A stretch of 58,161 nt of DNA from Synergistaceae bacterium. GTDB lineage: Bacteria; Synergistota; Synergistia; Synergistales; Synergistaceae. The position numbers and the translations under genes are program-made. Positions 53,836-58,161 of the stretch are shown one piece after another (the first letter of the stretch is position 1; each line of letters opens with the position of its first letter). Location: NCBI GenBank assembly GCA_031269245.1, contig JAISZL010000083.1:1-58161 (forward strand), read 5' to 3'. The notes below the pieces were generated by a model. It was not told where the DNA came from. It searched no databases and saw only the letters and a list, made by a program, of their open reading frames with translations.

Positions 53836-54327
53836 TTATTGGTTGTGCGGCGGCTCGTAGTTCGTCCCCATCAATTTTTTCCAGTCGACGTTTTCGTCGA
53901 GCAAGTTCGGACAAGTCGAGTCCGGGTAGAACCAATGTCTTCCGAGCCCCATCAGGACCTGCCACCAGTCGTGGACGTCGGGCGGGATCATCTGCCCCTC
54001 CGGGCCTATCCGCCGGAGCTCCCTGTATATGAGCGCTATCATCTGGCTGTCGTCAAGGCACGCCGTCGTCTTCCCGTAGAACTCCATCATATAGAAGTAG
54101 GAACACGCGCCGAGCTGAAAGAGCACGTCCCTCCATTTCTCCGGCACCCTCGCCGTGCGCGCGAGGACGATGCTCTTCTTGGAGCCGGACGATTTATGGT
54201 TGACGACGAAGAGGATATGGTCGGCGTCAATGTGCCGGAGCTCCTCGTATTTCTTGATGAGCGAGTCCGCTAGCGGTCTGATGCGGGAATTGCATATTTC
54301 AAAATCAAATTCGTGGCTCGGTTCCAT
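53836..54327 (-). CDS. Metallopeptidase-like protein lacking the catalytic histidines
   Basis: 163 residues. The overall pattern recalls the small putative phage-type metallopeptidase family (Pfam PF18894 type): RIRPLADSLIKKYEELRH near the start, a beta hairpin with ILFVVNHKSSGSKKSIVLARTAR, then MIALIYRELRRIG followed by VHDWWQVLMGLGRHWF. In active members the middle motif is H-E-L-x-H; here both histidines are arginine (R-E-L-R-R). If the family call is right this is a non-catalytic homologue. ATG 54327 has AAGGAG nine bases upstream; a TTG at 54351 is upstream of that Shine-Dalgarno. It is 56 bases before the alpha-2-macroglobulin gene in the same direction and may be co-transcribed with it. 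Confidence 0.65.
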   Translation of the reverse strand: MEPSHEFDFEICNSRIRPLADSLIKKYEELRHIDADHILFVVNHKSSGSKKSIVLARTARVPEKWRDVLFQLGACSYFYMMEFYGKTTACLDDSQMIALIYRELRRIGPEGQMIPPDVHDWWQVLMGLGRHWFYPDSTCPNLLDENVDWKKLMGTNYEPPHNQ

Positions 54328-54404
54328 GACACACAACTCCTTATTCTTCAATTGGGGAAACGCCGATCTACAGAGCCTGAAGGACCTCGCCTCCCCTTGA
54401 TTGA

Positions 54405-55271: not shown

Positions 55272-55308
55272 CTTTACATCCCCTCCCGCGCACAAACGAT
55301 CTCGGCAA

Positions 55309-55363
55309 AACCGCGGGCTCTGCCCGCGCCCGGCAGGGAAACAGTTCCCCGCACCCTTTTTAC
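55309..55363. repeat. Family B intergenic repeat, copy 4
   Basis: AAACCGCGGGCTCTGCCCGC, CGGCAGGGAAACAGTTCCCC and GCACCCTTTTT match the first half of the copy that begins 70 bases downstream, so two units stand in tandem. Confidence 0.65.
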
Positions 55364-55378
55364 ATATTTTGATTATAC

Positions 55379-55507
55379 CTCAAACCGCGGGCTCTGCCCT
55401 CGCCCGGCAGGGAACCAGTTCCCCGCGCCCTTTCGGGGTCAAGGGGACCGGTCCCCTTGCGGGGTTCGGGGCGGAGCCCTGAGGTCTTGCCCGTGGTTCG
55501 AGGCTCA
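55379..55507. repeat. Family B intergenic repeat, copy 5 (long unit)
   Basis: Runs from CCTCAAACCGCGGGCTCTGC through GGGAACCAGTTCCCC, AAGGGGACCGGTCCCCTT and GCGGGGTTCGGGGCGGAGCC to GTGGTTCGAGGCTCAA. At least three perfect hairpins are nested in it. This is the most complete copy and defines the family ends. Confidence 0.7.
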
Positions 55508-55660
55508 AAATGAGCTAAAAGGCGTTGACTTTATTTGATCAATTTATCCCGGATGACGATGAGCGGGTTGTAGTTTGCCCGGCCCGAGCCCACTATATAG
55601 AGCAGAGGGAGGGGCCCATCCCTCGCCAGCACGAGACTGAGTATGAGGAGGAGTTTAGAA

Positions 55661-55879
55661 ATGGCGGCACTAAGCGAGTTGTCAGGCAAACTGGTATTCA
55701 AGATGAACACCGGAGAGGTCCGAGACGGCAGGACGGTCTACCGCGGCCTCTCCATCGGAGGAGTGAAGAGTTCCTCTCCGGCGGACGACCTCGCGGCGAT
55801 CCTGGACGTGGTGGAGGATCTCGTCCAGTTCCCGGTGGAGCAGACGTCCTTGACCAGGGTCGATCTGCTCAGCCGTTAA
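55661..55879 (+). CDS. DUF1659-like small protein
   Basis: 72 residues (MAALSELSGKLVFKMNTGEV ... LTRVDLLSR). Size, the K-L-x-F/Y-x-x-x-x-G start and the neighbouring DUF2922 gene fit the DUF1659 family, small beta-type proteins of unknown role common in Firmicutes. The ATG at 55661 is supported by GAGGAGGAG seven bases upstream; earlier in-frame starts lie before that Shine-Dalgarno. It is the first gene of a five-gene run that ends with a sigma factor. Confidence 0.78.
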   Translation: MAALSELSGKLVFKMNTGEVRDGRTVYRGLSIGGVKSSSPADDLAAILDVVEDLVQFPVEQTSLTRVDLLSR

Positions 55880-55926
55880 ACGGGTACGGCGGCTGTACAC
55901 CTTATTATATTGAGGAGGAGAAAATC

Positions 55927-56136
55927 ATGAGCGCAAACACTGTTCTCAGCATGAAGTTCGAGACGGCGGCCGGGAAGAGCGCCATCGTCAACATCCAGCC
56001 GTGCAAGCCCGACGTCACGGAGACCGTTGTGTCATCGGCGATGGACGCCATGATCGCGAGCGGCGTGTTCGTCAAGGACTTCAGCGGCAAGCTCGGCGCG
56101 AGCCTGGTGGAGCGGACCGTCACGGAGCTGTTCTAG
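55927..56136 (+). CDS. DUF2922-like small protein
   Basis: 69 residues (MSANTVLSMKFETAAGKSAI ... VERTVTELF). The pattern of a short first strand (L-x-M-x-F-x-T-x-x-G-K), a central helix (VVSSAMDAMIASGVF) and a terminal A/Val-x-x-T-x-x-E-L-F fits DUF2922. DUF1659 and DUF2922 genes are usually side by side, as here (47 bases apart). The role is unknown. GAGGAGAAA precedes the ATG. A longer frame starting at 55525 merges unrelated upstream sequence and is rejected. Confidence 0.78.
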   Translation: MSANTVLSMKFETAAGKSAIVNIQPCKPDVTETVVSSAMDAMIASGVFVKDFSGKLGASLVERTVTELF

Positions 56137-56149
56137 CGCCGGCATCCCT

Positions 56150-56335
56150 GGGGGAGCGGGGGCCCCAAACTACAGGCAAAACCTTGGGGCTCCCGCCCCA
56201 AACCCCGCAAGGGGACCAGTCCCCTTGACCCCGTTTGTTTTTTGTCTTCACCCTCGGGGTGAAGACAAAAAAACGAAAGGGTCCGGGGAGCTAGTTCCCT
56301 GGCGGGCGCGGGCGGAGCCCGCGGTTTTCAGATAA
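56150..56335. repeat. Family B intergenic repeat, copy 6 (two inverted units)
   Basis: The first half (CTACAGGCAAAACCTTGGGG, CCCCGCAAGGGGACCAGTCC) is an inverted unit, the second half (AAAGGGTCCGGGGAGCTAG, GGCGGGCGCGGGCGGAGCCC) a direct one. Between them TTTTTTGTCTTCACCC (56238-56253) pairs perfectly with GGGTGAAGACAAAAAA (56257-56272) around a three-base loop. It lies inside the small-protein operon, between the DUF2922 and YvrJ genes. Confidence 0.7.
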
Positions 56336-56356
56336 GCGGTTGGAGGTGAGTGCTCA

Positions 56357-56521
56357 ATGGAGGATTTCATGGCTGGGGCGCTGCAGGGGGTCTTTTCCGT
56401 CGCGGTCGCCGGATACCTGCTCGTCAGGATGGAGGACAGGCTGGACAAACTGACCACCGCCATAGCGCGCCTGGAATCGGCCATAGATGGCGTGTTCAAA
56501 AGGGGTGGAGACGCGCGGTAA
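56357..56521 (+). CDS. YvrJ family small membrane-associated protein
   Basis: 54 residues, too short for most gene finders. An N-terminal hydrophobic helix (about residues 3-23, FMAGALQGVFSVAVAGYLLV) is followed by RMEDRLDKLTTAIARLE, which matches the YvrJ family pattern (Y-L-L-x-R-M-E-x-x-L). In B. subtilis yvrJ lies next to the sigma-O genes sigO and rsoA. Here too a sigma-factor gene is two genes downstream. GGAGGTGAG precedes the ATG. Its stop TAA overlaps the first codon (GTA) of the M15 peptidase gene. Confidence 0.8.
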   Translation: MEDFMAGALQGVFSVAVAGYLLVRMEDRLDKLTTAIARLESAIDGVFKRGGDAR

Positions 56522-56856
56522 GGAACGACGTCAGGGTATCTCCGCACTTCAAGCTCAGGGAGTTCGAGTGCCGCTGCTGCGGGGCGGTCATGATCTCGGC
56601 TCTGCTGCTCGACAGGCTGGAGGCGCTGCGGGCCGCTTTCGGCCGCCCGCTGGTGATAACGAGCGGCTACCGATGCGCGGAGCACAACGCGCGGGTCGGA
56701 GGCGCCGCCGGGAGCCTCCACCTCACCGGGCGGGCCGCCGATGTCAGGGCGGATGCCGCGGATCAGCTCCAGTTGAAGCGGTTGGCCTGTGATTTGGAAT
56801 TTCAAGAAGTGATTTGCGGGAACAAAAAACATTATATCCACCTAGCGCTTCGTTAG
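56518..56856 (+). CDS. Peptidase M15-type (M15_3, D-Ala-D-Ala carboxypeptidase-like) with a non-canonical start
   Basis: 112 residues beginning VRNDVRVSPHFKLREFECRC. Marks of the M15_3 family are the LREFEC start, ITSGYRCAEHN, the zinc-ligand block GSLHLTGRAADV (H and D) and the C-terminal HYIHLAL. Such enzymes cut peptidoglycan stem peptides, and many are phage-like endolysins. There is no ATG, GTG or TTG at the domain start. GGTGGAG (56504-56510) is seven bases before a GTA codon at 56518, which would overlap the YvrJ stop as GTAA. The only upstream NTG in frame is a GTG at 56350, which would run through yvrJ. The true start is therefore unresolved. Confidence 0.75.
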   Translation, partial: VRNDVRVSPHFKLREFECRCCGAVMISALLLDRLEALRAAFGRPLVITSGYRCAEHNARVGGAAGSLHLTGRAADVRADAADQLQLKRLACDLEFQEVICGNKKHYIHLALR

Positions 56857-56942
56857 TCGCCTGTGATAGTCTTGTCCGGTCAGGCGCCTGACAATAAATC
56901 GGTCTTTTCGTTGAAAATCCATAAAGAATAGGGTGAGCTTGA

Positions 56943-57506
56943 TTGAGTATGACGTGCGGGCGCGTGTGTTGCGCGGATGACGATGGGGATGATTGGATGG
57001 GCGACGGGGATATGCTCGATTTGGTGACGGCATACGAGCCGCTCGTGGCAAAGATGGCCTTCAAGTACGGGGGCAGGGGAGCGGAGGTCGAGGATTTGAG
57101 GCAGGTGAGCTATATGGCGTTGCTGGTGCTGGCCCGGAGGGTATCGAGGAAGAGGCTTGGCCTGGCGCTGTCGAACTTCGTCCCGGGCATGGTGCGCGAC
57201 GCCGCGGCTAAGATGAGGTACAGGGGCTGTGAGGTGCGGATGACGTGCGATGACGACGGCGACGAGGGCGGCGACCCGCTCGAAACGCTGGCGGCGGAGG
57301 ATCGGACGGCGGCGGAGGACCGGGATCGAGTTGAGCTGATGGACGCCCTGGAGCGCCTGCTCACCCCGTCGGACCTGGAGATAGCCGAGAAGCTGATGCG
57401 GGGCTTCACGCAGGGCGAGATAGCCGCCGAGATGGGCGTCTCACAGCAGGCGATCTCAAAGCGCGTGCAACGGATAAGGTTACTCGCGAGCAGCCTGAGG
57501 AATTAA
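56943..57506 (+). CDS. Small sigma-70 family sigma factor
   Basis: 187 residues. A region 2-like part (about 22-100, LDLVTAYEPLVAKMAFKYGG ... FVPGMVRDAAAKMRYRG), a highly acidic linker (about 102-125), and a region 4-like helix-turn-helix (about 140-180, LTPSDLEIAEKLMRGFTQGE, IAAEMGVSQQAISKRVQRIR) are visible. The shape recalls group 4/phage-like sigma factors rather than the housekeeping type. TTG at 56943 follows GGGTGAG; an ATG at 56997 would give a shorter protein starting MGDGDMLDLV. Linkage with YvrJ, DUF1659 and DUF2922 suggests it controls this module and perhaps the exported protein downstream. Confidence 0.8.
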   Translation: MSMTCGRVCCADDDGDDWMGDGDMLDLVTAYEPLVAKMAFKYGGRGAEVEDLRQVSYMALLVLARRVSRKRLGLALSNFVPGMVRDAAAKMRYRGCEVRMTCDDDGDEGGDPLETLAAEDRTAAEDRDRVELMDALERLLTPSDLEIAEKLMRGFTQGEIAAEMGVSQQAISKRVQRIRLLASSLRN

Positions 57507-57512
57507 TCGCTA

Positions 57513-57539
57513 GGGGGGGGCGGCCTCGGCCGTCCCCCC
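57513..57539 (+). terminator. GC-rich hairpin after the sigma-factor gene
   Basis: An eight-G run and GGCC pair with GGCC and a six-C run. No T-tract follows, so it may be a weak or factor-assisted terminator. Confidence 0.45.
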
Positions 57540-57580
57540 GTCTCCCAGCGCCGTCAGTCACCGCCCTCGATTACCGCGGA

Positions 57581-57632
57581 AGATCCCGGGCGAGGCCCGA
57601 GCTCGGCGGGAAGCAAGCTCCCCGCCCTCTAT
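57581..57632. repeat. Family B intergenic repeat, copy 7 (remnant)
   Basis: GGCGAGGCCCGAGCTCGGCG, GGGAAGCAAGCTCCCCGCCC resembles the GGGAAcnAGTTCCCCGC stem of the other copies. Confidence 0.4.
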
Positions 57633-57814
57633 ATCATAAATTTTCTTTCACCCGAACCGCCCTTATGTCCCGTTCATTCAACCCGGTTATATCAAGTTTT
57701 CGGGCTCCTCGGCTCTTTGCACGGCGGAGTCCGCGCCGCGCGTTCGAGCTTAATTTTTTCGCGTAATTTCGATGCGCGTTCGTCATTTTGGGGCGGTTTC
57801 TCGCATTATGCTTT

Positions 57815-57844
57815 TTGTAGCCGAGATACTTTATCGGCTATATT
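57815..57844 (+). promoter_or_regulatory. Promoter candidate with internal inverted repeat, upstream of the exported protein
   Basis: TTGTAG (57815-57820), an 18-base spacer and TATATT (57839-57844). The inverted repeat TAGCCGA (57818-57824) / TCGGCTA (57834-57840) fills the spacer, as an operator would. Confidence 0.45.
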
Positions 57845-58118
57845 TGATGTGTCTGAAGCGTATTGAGAAATCTTGAGGATTACGTGTTTGATTTGGCGTC
57901 GCTGCCGGCAAAATACGGTTTTTTATTGGCGTAAATCGCGTTATCCTGCTGCAATGCGCGAATCTATCTTGGGAAGGGGTTGATGCCGTGCCGGGAAGCC
58001 GTTGAAATTTGTCGTGTTGGGCATGTGGTCTTGAGTGGGAAGGGCATCGGCGGATGATTCCGCTCCCTCGCGAGTGACCTGGGGGAAGTCAATATTAATT
58101 TTTTAGGAGGTTTTTAAG

Positions 58119-58161
58119 ATGAAGGGTTCGAGTAAGATACTGGCGGCCATCCTGGCCGTAG
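58119..58161 (+). CDS. N-terminus of an exported protein (signal peptide only)
   Basis: The frame starts ATG at 58119 with AGGAGG eight bases upstream and reads MKGSSKILAAILAV before the window ends. A basic N-region followed by a hydrophobic core is the beginning of a Sec signal peptide. Similar starts are common in S-layer and porin-like proteins of diderm anaerobes; nothing in the 14 residues proves this. The long leader and strong Shine-Dalgarno suggest a highly expressed surface protein. Confidence 0.65.
   Translation, partial: MKGSSKILAAILAV

Follow-up and report, generated by a model that had tools for sequence, protein, structure and literature searches.

Loci that join a dedicated sigma factor to a holin and an endolysin are already known. 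The UviA/UviB locus of Clostridium perfringens holds a sigma factor, a small holin, an amidase and the bacteriocin Bcn5 together, and TcdR/TcdE and other clostridial toxin loci likewise set a dedicated sigma factor beside holin and endolysin genes (PMC9527704). In Bacillus subtilis, the protein YvrJ belongs to the regulon of the two-part sigma factor SigO-RsoA (PMC8103513). Here we analyze a five-gene cassette at the end of a contig from a Synergistaceae bacterium (JAISZL010000083.1, assembly GCA_031269245.1); the window is this entire contig of 58,161 nucleotides. The cassette encodes, in order, a DUF1659 protein, a DUF2922 protein, YvrJ, an M15 peptidase and a sigma factor (Table 1). A reading of the window made from the letters and open reading frames (the sequence-only reading) had placed these five genes correctly: they lie on one strand, and all score above curated cut-offs.

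In our view, with a probability of about 0.62, these genes form a holin–endolysin cassette that derives from phage, resides in the chromosome and is controlled by a sigma factor of its own. Sequence comparison supplies what carries this reading, namely the gene content and order, the links to holin and endolysin families, the exchange of the endolysin for another class and a promoter motif tied to the sigma factor.

Table 1. The cassette, its candidate promoter and a phage-type gene nearby, in window coordinates
Feature	Positions	Strand	Basis or remark
Putative phage metallopeptidase (PhageMetallopep)	53836-54351		PF18894; between the BioY and alpha-2-macroglobulin genes
Promoter-like motif GGTTGT-N19-CACTATATAG	55565..55607	+	5' of DUF1659; candidate recognition site of the cassette-encoded sigma factor
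DUF1659 protein, 72 aa	55661..55879	+	PF07872, 31.1 bits (cut-off 24.1)
DUF2922 protein, 69 aa	55927..56136	+	PF11148, 65.9 bits (cut-off 25.5)
YvrJ, 54 aa, probable holin with a single transmembrane helix and an amphipathic helix	56357..56521	+	PF12841, 41.8 bits (cut-off 29.5)
M15 (M15_3-type) peptidase, probable endolysin	56518..56856	+	PF08291 (Peptidase_M15_3), 83.3 bits (cut-off 23.2)
Single-chain sigma factor, 187 aa from first TTG	56943..57506	+	TIGR02937, 48.2 bits (cut-off 42.9)

The cassette shares with UviA/UviB a sigma factor, a small holin with one transmembrane helix and an endolysin (both putative here), and the proposed release of leaderless protein. It differs in its parts: UviA/UviB has a BhlA-family holin, an amidase and an adjacent bacteriocin, whereas this locus has a YvrJ-family protein, an M15 peptidase, DUF1659 and DUF2922, and no bacteriocin. 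TcdR/TcdE and the related toxin loci resemble it in the dedicated sigma factor beside holin and endolysin genes, but TcdE is a holin of another family with several transmembrane helices, and its large toxin cargo has no counterpart here. The Bacillus SigO-RsoA-YvrJ system offers a third parallel, with YvrJ in the sigma factor's own regulon and sigma genes neighboring yvrJ in Paenibacillus-type loci; there, however, two proteins make up the sigma factor, neither a hydrolase nor the DUF pair adjoins in the loci examined, and YvrJ is not described as a holin. Type 10 secretion, as in the Serratia chitinase system and its relatives, includes spanins, has a known cargo and is not known to have a sigma factor within the operon. 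Its likeness to the cassette lies in the use of a phage-origin holin and a peptidoglycan endopeptidase in a diderm (the pair is cited in PMC9527704), whereas beside the cassette no conserved neighbor was seen, no search aimed at spanins having been made. New here are the parts that make up the cassette and its promoter, together with the identity that YvrJ probably has and the two leaderless proteins standing where a cargo would.

Across a comparison set of 53 genomes of the window's family, YvrJ was found in 31, DUF2922 in 35 and the sigma factor in 31. The order DUF1659-DUF2922-YvrJ-M15-sigma returns at most of the family's loci that carry the sigma factor, between flanks that differ from genus to genus, and the arrangement in the window is thus not a matter of chance. 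The sequence-only reading had also stressed that YvrJ recurs with a sigma factor in a distant lineage; recurrence with sigma-70-type factors indeed holds for the window's family, Clostridium/Alkalithermobacter, Paenibacillus and Sporosarcina. Clostridium drakei, C. carboxidivorans and Alkalithermobacter carry DUF1659-DUF2922-YvrJ-sigma with the sigma factor as a single protein, and the Paenibacillus and Sporosarcina YvrJ loci carry a split pair of SigO-like and RsoA-like proteins, YvrJ lying between the SigO-like gene and an RsoA-like HTH_16 gene in Paenibacillus (L143, L157, L160, L163, L164 and L167). Two further arrangements within the family were recorded. In genomes G016 and G017 (L075-L077) the DUF1659-DUF2922 pair occurs up to three times; a diverged sigma gene is near, and YvrJ and M15 are missing. 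At L053 (G034:C78) a perfect inverted duplication surrounds the cassette, with more than 5 kb per arm and zero mismatch, which is probably an assembly artefact.

YvrJ is probably a small holin, judging from its relatives in phages. An IMG/VR scan returned nine YvrJ-like loci on viral contigs, and the phage YvrJ proteins tested match the PHROG "holin" family phrog_4898 with E values down to 2e-9; the same family is matched by a plasmid YvrJ (4e-6) and by a YvrJ from the window's family (7.5e-4). On three viral contigs an Amidase_2 gene lies one to three genes after YvrJ, and in Bacillus phage KonjoTrouble a YvrJ-like protein annotated as holin is encoded directly 5' of the endolysin. The YvrJ stop in the window is where the M15 frame begins, placing the putative holin directly before the putative endolysin, in an order comparable to that in phages. 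Hydropathy and helical moment indicate one N-terminal hydrophobic helix (a hydrophobic 15-mer) followed by an amphipathic helix, a layout also found in the BhlA/TpeE holins (PMC9527704).

The M15 peptidase, in turn, is probably an endolysin. It matches the phage endolysin family phrog_894 (1.8e-29) and the muramoyl-pentapeptide carboxypeptidase 1lbu (5.7e-7), and the zinc ligands (SxHxxGxAxD plus a C-terminal histidine) are kept, as seen in GSLHLTGRAADV aligned to 1lbu, in the motif SLHLTGRAAD and in YIHLALR, which holds the C-terminal histidine. Inspection of relatives with clear starts revealed no signal peptide. The position behind YvrJ is not reserved for this class of enzyme. When Firmicutes-type YvrJ was surveyed in other lineages at one genome per species, 80 loci were obtained, the DUF pair being present at 35 and neither DUF at 44; a peptidoglycan hydrolase lies within 2.5 kb at 18/35 of the former and 1/44 of the latter (Fisher p 2e-7, in a sample that was pattern-selected and is not independent by descent). 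In fourteen loci the hydrolase is 3' of YvrJ on the same strand and is an Amidase_2 or Amidase_3, never M15; in Clostridia, a wall hydrolase unrelated to M15 thus takes its place behind the DUF1659-DUF2922-YvrJ trio. A hydrolase class swapped behind a constant trio is the pattern expected of a holin–endolysin cassette.

These observations also bear on an alternative in which the cassette would remodel the wall without lysis or export, with YvrJ as an anchor in the membrane or a regulator and with the hydrolase at work in ordinary growth or development. Consistent with it, some Paenibacillus YvrJ loci with sigma genes have no hydrolase near, and no paper in the literature library searched was found to test YvrJ or to connect it with holins. 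Yet hydrolases that lack a signal peptide would need an exit route, phage YvrJ occupies the holin position, and the hydrolase class changes in an arrangement that stays constant; we therefore regard this alternative as unlikely.

The sigma factor consists of regions 2 and 4 only, in one chain, a layout of the extracytoplasmic function (ECF)-like, group IV type; Sigma70_r2 is just above its cut-off, and the region 4 profiles fall under theirs. It thereby departs from the SigO-RsoA layout, in which regions 2 and 4 are in separate proteins. Its length is counted from the first TTG, and the true start is possibly later. No anti-sigma factor was recognized within the cassette by profile scan or neighborhood survey. 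Upstream of DUF1659, relatives with the sigma factor have the consensus TTTGT, exactly 19 nucleotides and CACTaTTAt. The core TTGT-N19-CACT is present at 14/20 loci with the sigma factor and 0/10 without it, and at none of 23 other spacings, counts that are descriptive only because the motif was first spotted by eye. Three cassettes that lack the sigma factor have in its place an ordinary promoter, TTGAC(A/T) plus TATCCT. The exact core occurs once in the window, where chance alone would give about 0.5 occurrences, and what gives the motif weight is its conservation; no sigma-70 promoter-like sites were found in 55300-58161, where about one is expected by chance.

A motif model built from sequence only, on 17 sites, was run on all 53 genomes. 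Its sole match in the window's own genome is the site before DUF1659 (E 0.007), and by genome it finds the motif in 17/31 with the sigma factor and 2/22 without it (p 0.001, a statistic that ignores phylogeny). Hits outside the training set include split operons with the motif on both halves: G046 has it before YvrJ-M15-sigma and its DUF pair, located elsewhere, carries its own site, and G044 has it before M15-sigma, on a different contig from the DUF pair. Further hits precede DUF1659 genes in G018 and G036 and, in G015, sigma paralogues that stand as orphans. The G036 genome has the motif before each of three DUF1659-like genes, with no lysis genes near. A motif of fixed spacing, tied to the presence of the sigma factor and found on both halves of split operons, makes it most likely, as the simplest reading, that the cassette is transcribed under its own sigma factor. 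With a promoter motif of its own, the cassette is in this respect the self-contained unit that the sequence-only reading took it for.

That reading had further proposed an envelope-response or surface-protein control unit. In such a unit the sigma factor would respond to the envelope and drive exported neighbors, and the peptidase would remodel the wall for their passage. The resemblance of YvrJ to a holin and of M15 to an endolysin gives the envelope-response role no support. Downstream of the cassette, the description of a 612-nucleotide spacer (57507-58118) holds, as does that of the start at 58119, an ATG that has an AGGAGG ribosome site, and an Rfam search of the spacer found no known RNA family; the signal peptide is only plausible, as the contig ends at 58161 and the 14 codons present do not allow the exported protein to be identified. 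The expectation of a promoter shared by 55661 and 58119 fails, the motif standing before the former only. In a weaker form, control of surface proteins remains tenable. Large exported proteins follow on the same strand after the cassette sigma factors of the window, G026, G040 and G045, and after orphan sigma factors in G015, G005 and G031; these proteins, in part adhesin-like, include a YadA-type adhesin and DUF6273/Big_2 proteins. G015 has five orphan sigma copies (L206-L210) with the motif 5' of each, and in most of them an insertion sequence (IS)-type element separates the sigma gene from an exported DUF6273/Big_2 or YadA-like gene. The exported genes themselves, that at 58119 among them, lack the motif, at least two (in G040 and G031) have canonical TTGACA-type sites, and the gene 3' of the cassette is variable or on the opposite strand at most loci, the one at 58119 not being conserved beside it. 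A link of this sigma family to surface proteins is thus possible, and a control unit as the explanation of the cassette appears improbable to us. Separately, exported genes at L045 and L216, in two genera, share a 5' leader, AAGAACGGGAGCAGGGGGTGAT, that has no Rfam match.

The genes 5' of the cassette in the window are those for BioY, the putative phage metallopeptidase, alpha-2-macroglobulin and a class A penicillin-binding protein. That the cassette is a decaying remnant of a prophage's lysis genes, without a role in the host, is very improbable: its putative holin and endolysin are of phage families, PhageMetallopep is near and the M15 start codon has been lost, but the nearest 5' genes are otherwise BioY, alpha-2-macroglobulin and penicillin-binding protein, and decay would not preserve an order and motif kept across many genera. 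G+C-rich palindromic intergenic sequences, similar in look to repetitive extragenic palindromic (REP) elements, lie at 55310-55480 and, between DUF2922 and YvrJ, at 56140-56335.

From these comparisons we infer how the cassette would work, from binding of the motif by the sigma factor, through formation of a pore and cutting of the wall, to release and the nature of what leaves the cell. Some signal would raise the active sigma factor, and polymerase bearing it would read the TTGT-N19-CACTaTTA promoter before DUF1659 and transcribe the entire cassette; with the sigma gene inside its own transcript, this would form a positive-feedback switch. The first part of the transcript would yield DUF1659 and DUF2922, both leaderless. 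YvrJ, acting as a small holin, would open the inner membrane, which M15, likewise leaderless, would then cross to cut peptidoglycan peptides. Cell contents or a specific protein would then be released, through lysis of the expressing cell or holin-dependent export.

Several points weigh against this proposal. The neighborhood survey of relatives found no conserved cargo gene beside the cassette. With a motif spotted by eye, the unbiased evidence consists of the spacing controls and the hits outside the training set, and 14/31 sigma-bearing genomes have no motif match at E<=0.05. The window's own YvrJ does not match phrog_4898 at E<=1, so that the holin link runs via relatives, and the BhlA profile (PF10960) is matched neither by it at E<=1 nor anywhere in the 53 genomes. 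The window's M15 frame also lacks a standard start codon, with GTA at the homologous position, 56518. In nearly all relatives M15 starts with ATG, GTG or TTG, in many cases with an overlap onto the stop codon of YvrJ; this overlap reads GTGA, TTGA or ATGA in close relatives and GTAA in the window, where the stop of YvrJ is retained and the start of M15 is lost. The copy in the window may therefore be a damaged one, start at a rare codon or contain a sequence error. The missing start also raised the possibility of a programmed frameshift that fuses M15 to YvrJ, which was rejected on the ordinary, separate starts of relatives.

DUF1659 and DUF2922 have good ribosome sites, no signal peptide and no detectable relatives of known function, and could be cargo, an anti-holin or regulators. 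AlphaFold2 predicts beta-beta-alpha-beta for both (pLDDT, the predicted local distance difference test, 90.7 and 73.5, respectively). We rejected the idea that they are paralogues, a clean profile comparison giving a probability of only 1.7%, and left unused the fold look-ups, all at Z < 5 (phage p56, p6, T7 Gp2, RNA polymerase epsilon and unrelated rows) and too weak; a search for DUF2922 in phages and viral contigs found no match. Tentatively, and with considerable doubt, the two may themselves be the released proteins, which would make the cassette a minimal, cargo-first, sigma-gated export system of the window's lineage and Firmicutes. The suggestion comes from the order of the genes, in which two leaderless proteins come first behind a dedicated sigma promoter and are followed by putative holin, hydrolase and sigma gene.

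The holin–endolysin reading offers a testable function for YvrJ, DUF1659 and DUF2922, three families with almost no literature, and the promoter motif gives a direct handle for testing the switch. It would mean that a logic of sigma factor, holin and endolysin known from the toxin and bacteriocin loci of clostridia has been carried into a lineage without visible toxin cargo. A further suggestion is that B. subtilis, too, has a holin in the YvrJ of its SigO-RsoA regulon, and if the DUF proteins are cargo, the SigO regulon would also hold a holin-dependent release step.

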